This document shows positions 823 to 15,411 of a DNA stretch of 26,028 bases, piece after piece (within the stretch, counting starts at the first letter, position 1; each line of letters opens with the position of its first letter). A program made the translations under genes and the position numbers. The notes below the pieces were generated by a model. It worked only from the letters and a program-made list of their open reading frames with translations, was not told the origin of the DNA and made no database searches. Origin of the DNA: a virus; the IMG/VR virus record IMGVR_UViG_3300022602_003072, positions 1 to 26,028 of that record; one strand, 5' to 3'.

Positions 823-3800
823 ATGGCACAACAAATAATTGATATTGGTATACAAGGTAACGATGGAACTGGCGATAGTATTCGCGAATCGTTTAATAAA
901 GTTAACTCTAACTTTAATGAGATTTATGCCATTTTTGGTGCTGGTGGAAGTATTAGTTTTGGACAACTTTCCGATGCTCCTGGAACTAGTTCATATGCTG
1001 TATCTAGTGCTACAACCGGAAGCGGGCAAGTTACTCTTAACTTTGCCAACGCAAATCCAGGATTAGGATTACCATTTAGTATAGGACAAAATATTGTTGT
1101 CAGCGGATTAATCCCAGCTGGATATAATGGAACATATACTGTTACTAACAGTACTTCCACTAGTGTAACATATTTTAATTCGACTACAGGTTCTTTAACA
1201 CAAACTGGTACAATTAAAGGAACTAGTTATAGTGCTAATCAAGTTATTATGGGTAGCACTACTGGTACTAGTTTAACTGCTAGAACTATTGTAGGCGGTG
1301 GCGGCATTACTATAAATGCATCAGATAACCAAACATTGCTTATTACAAACGCAAACGCAGAAGGATTAATCAGTGATGGTTCCCCTAGTATGGGTGCGCC
1401 AATCAACGCTAATTTGTTTACTATTGGAAGATTGAGCGATCCGAGCGCAGAACTTGTTTCAACATTTAATGCAGTTTTTGCTAGTCAAGGTATATCAACA
1501 ACATTAGGTCAATTAGCAGTTACAGTAAACTATGCTAATAATAATTTCTTACAAGCAGTTAATGGTCAAATTACTGGACCATTACGTGTGCGAAATGAAC
1601 CGACATTGCCTCAAGTAAATGATCAAGATTATGATTCTACTCTAAATGGCAATTATGTAGCCACAGAAGCAATCCAACGTCGTCATGCTGTATTACGTGA
1701 CGGTGATACTATGACTGGGTCATTGACTCTAAGTGATCACCCTGGAGTACTAAGCGGAGCTGGTATTGTTAATGGCAGCGATGATTTACAAGCCGCAACA
1801 AAATATTACGTAGATAATAACACCTATTATAGTGAAATCAATTTATACGTTTCAACAACAAAAGGTGACGATACACAAAAAAATACTCCTGCCGGTCGAG
1901 AAGGCAGAGCTTGGCACTATGCTTATAAAACTATTAGCCAAGCCTGTTTACAAGCAGAAAACCTAATTAATTTAGCGTTCGGTATTCCTGGACCTTATCA
2001 ACAAACTATCGAATATACTGTTGGGCCTACAACATATAAAAGCCAAATCTTAAGTATTGGCTTTACTGGAGGCAATATCGGAATTCAAGGATTCTCCGAT
2101 GCCGCAAGTTTATTAGAAGCTAACAAATCATTTATCCAAGCTGAAACTATTGCTTACCTAAATCAAAAATATGTTAACTCGTTTACCTTTAATCAATTGC
2201 AATATCTCCAAATTATGGAAAATATTGTTAACGGAGTCGCATATGACTTAGTATTAGGTACAAACTTTAACAGTATTACGCAAGCTAGTATTTTATTACT
2301 TCCAAATAATGTTTCTATATCTGGAAACTTGACTACTATATTGGCTGCCATTAAAGATGCCGAAACTCAAATATTAAACTTTAGCTATAGTACTGCAAAT
2401 CTACAAACTTATTTAGATTTAGTAATAACTGCACTAAGTTATGATTTGTTATTAGGTACCAATTACGGTGGTATTCAGGTAGGACTTGCATACAATCAAT
2501 ACAATGTTGGATTAGAAATAACTCCTACAGTAGTAAATCCTACTGTTATAGGAACAAGTGGTGTAGCTTCTGCTACAGCATGCGCTATTATCGGAACAAC
2601 ACTTACTATAAGCGGAACAATTACTGGTACATTTGCCCTTGGAATGTCTTTATCAGGAATAGGAATTACAGCAGGAACAACTATTACAGCATTTGTTTCA
2701 GGCTCAGGCGGAACTGGAACATACACAGTAAGCATTAGTCAGACTGTAACTTCAACTGCGATAACAGGAACTAATAACACAGTATTGTTATCAAGTATTG
2801 AAACATTAGTTCTTGATAATGCCATTACATTTAATGGAACAATCGGCAATGTTGTTCAAGGAACTACTTATTATATCCTTTCTATTAATAGTACCTATAA
2901 CAGTATTACTATTGGCACATCTATTACTGGGTCTGTGTTAAATCAACAAACGGTAACTCCTTCTACTACTATAGAAGCAGATACAACTGCACCAAGCGAA
3001 ATTGCAGGCGTATTGGAAAACTTGTCCAATGCTATTCAATCTTCACCAATTGTATCTACAAGTCCTACAATAGTTGCTCGAGTTAATACAATTATGAACA
3101 CCATTATCGGTGTTATCAATTCTGGTGCAACTAGTAGTGTAATTGTCGAAGGTGCTACTATACCTACTCCGTTGTTCCCATCAACTTCTCTTACTACAAC
3201 AGGACAAGTTAGTGCCGCAACTCTATTGATGGAAAATATTCCATTTATACAAGCAGAAGTCACAGCATATTTACTTGCTAACTACCCCACTGTTAACTAT
3301 AACACAACTTATAGTAAACGAGATATTGAATTTTTAGTGTGGAGCATCACCTATGATTTAATGTATGGTGGTAACAGCCAATCTGTATATGCTGGATTAC
3401 AATATTGGATTAACGGAAGTTTACAACTATTATCATACCATCAGGCTGCCTGTGTTGCGGCAATTGGATATATTAACACGTTAGCTCAAGCAATTATTAA
3501 TAATTATTCTCCCGTAACTCTTTATCAAACAACTGTAATACAATATATTAATAGCACATTAACAGGTGGTGGAACATCATATGTAAACGGTGGTTCTACT
3601 AGTATTTCTAGTTCCATTAGTGCAAATATTGCTTTAATTCAAAGTATTGTTGGTGCAGGTAGTTATGCGACAGCCGTTAGTACAGCTTCTGGAAGAGTAG
3701 CTCCAACTACAAGTGTAGCTTCTAGTATATTGCAAACTGCTGTAGGTGGAACTATTGTTCCAGTAATAACAACCACATTTAATAGCGGTGGACTTCAAAA

Positions 3801-15411: not shown

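Follow-up and report, generated by a model that had tools for sequence, protein, structure and literature searches.

The window analysed here, a 26-kb virus fragment of 26,028 nucleotides, carries a gene that probably encodes a giant fibre, built from a baseplate anchor, a backbone shaft, modules and a chaperone tip and used in host adsorption, in an uncultured T4-like phage with a contractile tail. The fibre is no one-off; giant phage fibres of its family are widespread. What is new is the union in one protein of a gp9/10 anchor and a G2-like tip with a backbone of cyanophage type and expanded A/B/C modules; in the searches made, the full combination of ends, backbone and modules was found only in uncultured phages.

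823-15411 (+): probable giant tail/baseplate fibre gene, 4862 aa (open frame; second assembly intact from 6062 on)

As the preliminary description had it, this open reading frame spans 14.6 kb and 4862 codons. It begins with ATG and has no internal stop. The ATG lies 3 nt past the stop codon of the upstream gene and the fibre stop overlaps the next ATG (TAATG), so the gene sits in a tightly packed cluster. A second IMG/VR contig (L009) is collinear with positions 6062-17299 at 99.93% identity, with no gaps and 8 mismatches, six of which fall inside the fibre gene (4/6 silent). Because tandem repeats are nearly absent from the gene at the DNA level, assembly collapse at repeats is unlikely. Our search of IMG/VR proteins found 139 relatives, with 80 loci kept, and complete homologues sharing both ends occur in other uncultured phages from 2185 aa upward, the longest (L033) having 5286 aa. 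Near-identical giants of equal length also recur in different metagenomes (4761 aa, three times; 4570, twice; 4416, three times; 3934, twice; 2394, four times). A scan of prokaryote genomes returned no relative.

Codon comparison of 11 pairs gave overall dN/dS values of 0.05-0.30, with pN below pS in each 250-codon window of every pair. Purifying selection acts along the whole length of the fibre in all pairs compared, as had been surmised from the intact frame. A repeat-rich sequence on a metagenomic contig could in principle reflect misassembly or a mosaic of separate genes, but the collinear second contig, the many intact homologues, the selection throughout and the scarcity of DNA tandem repeats make this extremely improbable. 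The long frame is a genuine single gene and no assembly accident.

The genes that flank the fibre are as follows.

463-819 (+): A-type Fe-S carrier homologue, 118 aa (PF01521, E 8.3e-19)
15411-15674 (+): short protein, 87 aa, with an anchor of the type found in the giant fibre; its start overlaps the fibre stop (arrangement shared by most relatives)
15697-16170 (+): gp9-like connector, a protein of 157 aa that shares the giant fibre's anchor type (phrog_677, E 1.6e-11)

In most relatives with downstream sequence, a second anchor-type protein starts exactly at the fibre stop and a third often comes next; the first of these spans ∼78 to 946 aa across relatives. The Fe-S carrier homologue has an intact Cys...CysGlyCys (C...CGC) motif. 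Of 41 relatives, 35 carry its gene directly upstream of the fibre, among them compact members, and in 33 of those 35 its end and the fibre start are no more than a few bases apart. A tblastn search of the isolate-phage collection with this protein returned mostly records of apparent bacterial DNA, together with two uncultured huge phages. One might imagine that these phages tune fibre length and binding by insertion and deletion of stand-alone ∼70-residue domains in a single gene and, in addition, that fibre maturation needs the upstream A-type Fe-S carrier as a dedicated factor; we consider this joint proposal unlikely. A search for iron sites in the fibre found no HxH motif and one Cys column conserved in >85% of members.

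Farther downstream lie several other genes. Positions 16187-17707 encode a 506-aa protein with an N-terminus of the major-tropism-determinant type (Mtd_N). The 1046-aa protein at 17717-20857, for which PHROG gave no match, has four putative domains of the Ig type (He_PIG) and is probably another tail decoration or fibre. A 169-aa protein (22367-22876) matches part of DNA polymerase III alpha (PF07733, phrog_11127) and, by these matches, is a stand-alone polymerase fragment; it is near the T4-type clamp loader. At 24719-25495 is a 258-aa kinase, part of which may be a cytidylyltransferase (phrog_10255 and weaker cytidyltransferase matches).

The clamp loader downstream of the fibre (phrog_168, E 1.4e-79) is nearest, among isolates, to those of Pseudomonas phage PA5oct and its relatives (54%) and Agrobacterium phage Atu_ph07 (48%), and two long relatives (223 and 165 kb) carry the T4 capsid protein gp23. 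A cyanophage host was considered and dropped. We leave the host unclaimed because no psbA was found in ten relatives and because the clamp loader is nearest to those of PA5oct and Atu_ph07.

The fibre-type N-terminus anticipated for this protein proved to be of a specific kind.

823-957 (+): N-terminal baseplate anchor of the T4 gp9/gp10 N-terminal type, residues 1-45 (PDB profile match)

The whole fibre protein has no PF07880 match, and a search of isolate phages with the N-terminal slice found nothing at E 1e-5; at relaxed limits it returned T4 gp10 genes only at E 3-10, plus two weak matches. Because this single-slice search was too weak, a profile of family N-termini was compared with the PDB instead, and it matched T4 gp10 (E 2.6e-9) and gp9 (E 5.3e-5) over profile positions 3-41. 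These profile matches show the fibre N-terminus to be homologous to the gp9/gp10-type baseplate anchor, and a baseplate location for the fibre would follow from that homology.

Between its ends the protein combines conserved and variable sequence. In a progressive alignment of 41 repeat-rich members, whose occupancies are approximate, columns occupied by ≥90% of members hold 1989 window residues, and those occupied by <25% hold 984. There is a conserved backbone of ∼2000 residues between the ends, carrying three small-module families and one longer repeat family. Its landmarks are listed below.

1696-1827 (+): conserved 'MTGSLTL...ATKYYVD' fibre motif, residues 292-335 (one copy in 41/41 distinct members)
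5890-7257 (+): conserved backbone block 1, residues 1690-2145, with one A module within (common to cyanophage/pelagiphage tail fibres)
8440-9222 (+): conserved backbone block 2, residues 2540-2800 (phrog_9851 tail fibre, E 1.2e-12)
12490-13122 (+): conserved backbone block 3, residues 3890-4100, with a 'MKGSLNM...YVD' motif at its end (phrog_9851 tail fibre, E 5.3e-34)

Slices of the fibre match PHROG tail-fibre families, and the TKxYVD-type motif of block 3 has a match (E 5e-5) among solved structures, in a tail fibre. Pfam returned no match for the whole protein or for slices of modules and backbone. The putative beta-helix core of the preliminary description was not confirmed: a fold model of backbone blocks 1-3 (relative L058, 978 aa) is beta-rich with a mean pLDDT of 57.6, and a fold search with this poor model gave no credible structural match. 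The beta-rich model, and a C-terminus of the same type as that of the phi29 tailspike gp12, would be compatible with a tailspike enzyme, with a beta-helix core that degrades polysaccharide. We doubt this reading, however, as the core matched neither a Pfam enzyme family nor a solved enzyme and its fold search, from a poor model, gave nothing credible.

Slice-by-slice self-comparison gave 233 off-diagonal matches, the best of them scoring 67.8 bits, whereas eight block-shuffled controls that kept local composition gave 20-40 matches of at most 38.9 bits. Because the matches are far above these controls, the internal repeats are real at the protein level. At least five families of repeated small domains had been proposed, and profiles recovered five, A to E, with 12, 6, 7, 7 and 2 copies, respectively, under a permissive per-domain threshold (E 0.01). 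A, B and C modules are ∼45-75 residues each; D repeats are longer and, judged by their sequence, may be helical. The copies are distributed as follows.

1018-1209 (+): B module, residues 66-129, immediately past the anchor, occupancy 0.25 (profile)
2086-2499 (+): two D repeats, residues 422-489 and 499-559 (profile)
2560-2769 (+): A module, residues 580-649, family occupancy 0.22 (profile)
2791-2922 (+): C module, residues 657-700 (profile)
3193-3414 (+): D repeat, residues 791-864 (profile; phrog_4527 short tail fibre, E 1.4e-7)
3769-3963 (+): A module, residues 983-1047, inside a 79-residue insertion relative to L011 (profile and pair comparison)
4168-4404 (+): D repeat, residues 1116-1194 (profile)
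4549-4923 (+): B module, residues 1243-1299, and C module, residues 1320-1367 (profile)
5176-5397 (+): D repeat, residues 1452-1525 (profile)
5611-5823 (+): A module, residues 1597-1667, seed (profile)
6127-6345 (+): A module, residues 1769-1841, within backbone block 1 (profile)
7402-7617 (+): A module, residues 2194-2265, exact whole-module insertion in a D unit relative to L011 (profile and pair comparison)
7885-8115 (+): D repeat, residues 2355-2431 (profile)
9361-9729 (+): two A modules, residues 2847-2969 (profile)
9874-10578 (+): A modules, residues 3018-3101 and 3179-3252, and B module, residues 3143-3203 (profile)
10498-10797 (+): E repeats, GSGYT-type, residues 3226-3325 (profile; overlaps phrog_460 match)
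10840-11220 (+): three C modules, residues 3340-3466 (profile)
11443-11760 (+): part of an A module, residues 3541-3577, and B module, residues 3590-3646 (profile)
11935-12063 (+): C module, residues 3705-3747 (profile)
12217-12378 (+): B module, residues 3799-3852 (profile)
13165-13407 (+): A module, residues 4115-4195 (profile)
13660-13851 (+): A module, residues 4280-4343 (profile)
14686-14808 (+): C module, residues 4622-4662 (profile)

The phrog_460 'head closure' match was rejected as a sign of head function, since it is a match to the E-type repeat. The five repeat families, together with the fibre-type ends and the selection along the length, favour the earlier view of one modular virion protein.

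Across the family, length follows the combined copy number of A, B and C with a rho of 0.94 (not corrected for phylogeny). In eight compact members (2185-2628 aa), modules of the A, B, C and E families were not detected, and three D repeats are kept in each. Close pairs differ by whole-module insertions and deletions; window residues 2193-2265, for example, are one complete A module that is absent from the relative L011. In a tree of conserved columns, copy number shifts between near relatives, such as L064 with five A modules and L065 with two. Another relative, L039, has 15 D repeats. The comparisons support a model in which gain and loss of whole modules would set fibre length.

A fibre-type C-terminus had likewise been foreseen, and the fold model gives it a likely identity.

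15040-15408 (+): predicted C-terminal Peptidase_G2-like intramolecular chaperone, residues 4740-4862, with predicted cleavage before D4740 (fold model, Peptidase_G2 matches, motif alignment)

The model of the C-terminal 148 residues has a mean pLDDT of 84.8 and resembles phi29 gp12 (3suc, TM 0.62; 3gqh, TM 0.59), although capsid and cement proteins score better by E-value and many of the structural matches are phage capsid/cement-type beta domains, not gp12. Peptidase_G2, the Pfam family with matches in most members, was matched in 18 of 35 scanned singly. Because the window protein scores 19.6 bits, below the curated gathering cut-off of 25, we claim that the domain works like Peptidase_G2 rather than that it is a filed member. 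For the final ∼123 residues we predict a fold like that of the intramolecular chaperone of phi29 gp12. The cleavage motif (A/S)-D-x-A-E is kept, with D and E invariant across 35 sequences, and aligns with phi29 S691/D692/E695; at the position preceding the Asp, most members have Ala and phi29 has Ser. An hhalign comparison of the domain with phi29 gp12 was weak and left the motif part unaligned. From the invariant D and E and the motif alignment, self-cleavage after A4739 and before D4740 is put forward as a prediction only.

The ∼40-residue N-terminal anchors of T4 gp10 and gp9 are homologous to that of the window fibre, but homology ends past the anchor and these proteins have only 288-602 aa. 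Backbone blocks are homologous to those of T4-like cyanophage and pelagiphage fibres (P-HM1 PHM1_097, MED4-213 CPMG_00024, P-SSM2 PSSM2_301, S-CAM1 SXBG_00229 and Mosig_00063), of which the P-HM1 and MED4-213 tail fibres are likewise giant (3676 and 3763 aa). These fibres have N-termini of other types, however; their C-termini showed no match to the G2-like domain, and a search of them for A/B/C modules found none. The cyanophage giant tail fibre class (T4-GC 513) shares the backbone blocks but not the N- and C-termini. The pre-neck appendage protein gp12 of Bacillus phage phi29, a tailspike, has a similar C-terminal fold and a [S/A]D[F/L]AE motif, but the rest of the protein is unrelated and the fibre family usually has Ala before the cut site. 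PA5oct gp359, whose record is marked ESI-MS/MS, and Atu_ph07 gp176 have a C-terminal domain like that of the window fibre (E 4e-34 and 5e-42), but they are of only 478 and 607 aa and the gp9/10 anchor and A-E modules were not detected in them. Giant virion proteins are already known in T4-like phages, and the size of this one, first described as far above that of ordinary phage fibre genes, is not exceptional for its group: beside its own homologues and the giant cyanophage fibres, PHROG models of T4-like virion proteins reach 6136 positions (phrog_701).

PA5oct and Atu_ph07 also suggest a different reading, in which the protein is not a fibre but an enlarged, gp7-like component of the baseplate wedge. 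Giant virion proteins follow gp6 in both phages (gp355 of PA5oct, 3857 aa and marked as detected by mass spectrometry; Atu_180 of Atu_ph07, 4449 aa), whose clamp loaders are the nearest to that of the window, and PHROG 'baseplate wedge subunit' families are among the matches of block 3. However, there is no gp6 beside the fibre gene, the N-terminus is of the gp9/10 type, gp355 has no match and Atu_180 matches at the E-type repeats only, and block 3 fits the tail-fibre family far better. We therefore regard a wedge component as a distinctly remote prospect.

The most probable account of these observations is a giant adsorption fibre. Residues 1-45 would plug into the baseplate wedge like the N-termini of T4 gp9 and gp10, and the ∼2000-residue backbone would form the shaft of a fibre that is presumably trimeric. 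The A, B and C modules and the longer D repeats lie in or between backbone segments, where they may serve adhesion or spacing and probably present weak binding sites for the cell surface, and fibre length would change as whole modules are gained and lost. The predicted C-terminal chaperone would trimerise and fold the shaft from the tip and may then cut itself off, as phi29 gp12 does, leaving a mature fibre that would adsorb the phage to its host.

The family is a natural series of 2185-5286 residues with constant ends, whose members are longer the more small modules they have. This series lets the growth, folding and function of very long phage fibres be tested, including whether a single C-terminal chaperone suffices to fold nearly 5000 residues, and many giant open reading frames in uncultured phage contigs gain a concrete identity.
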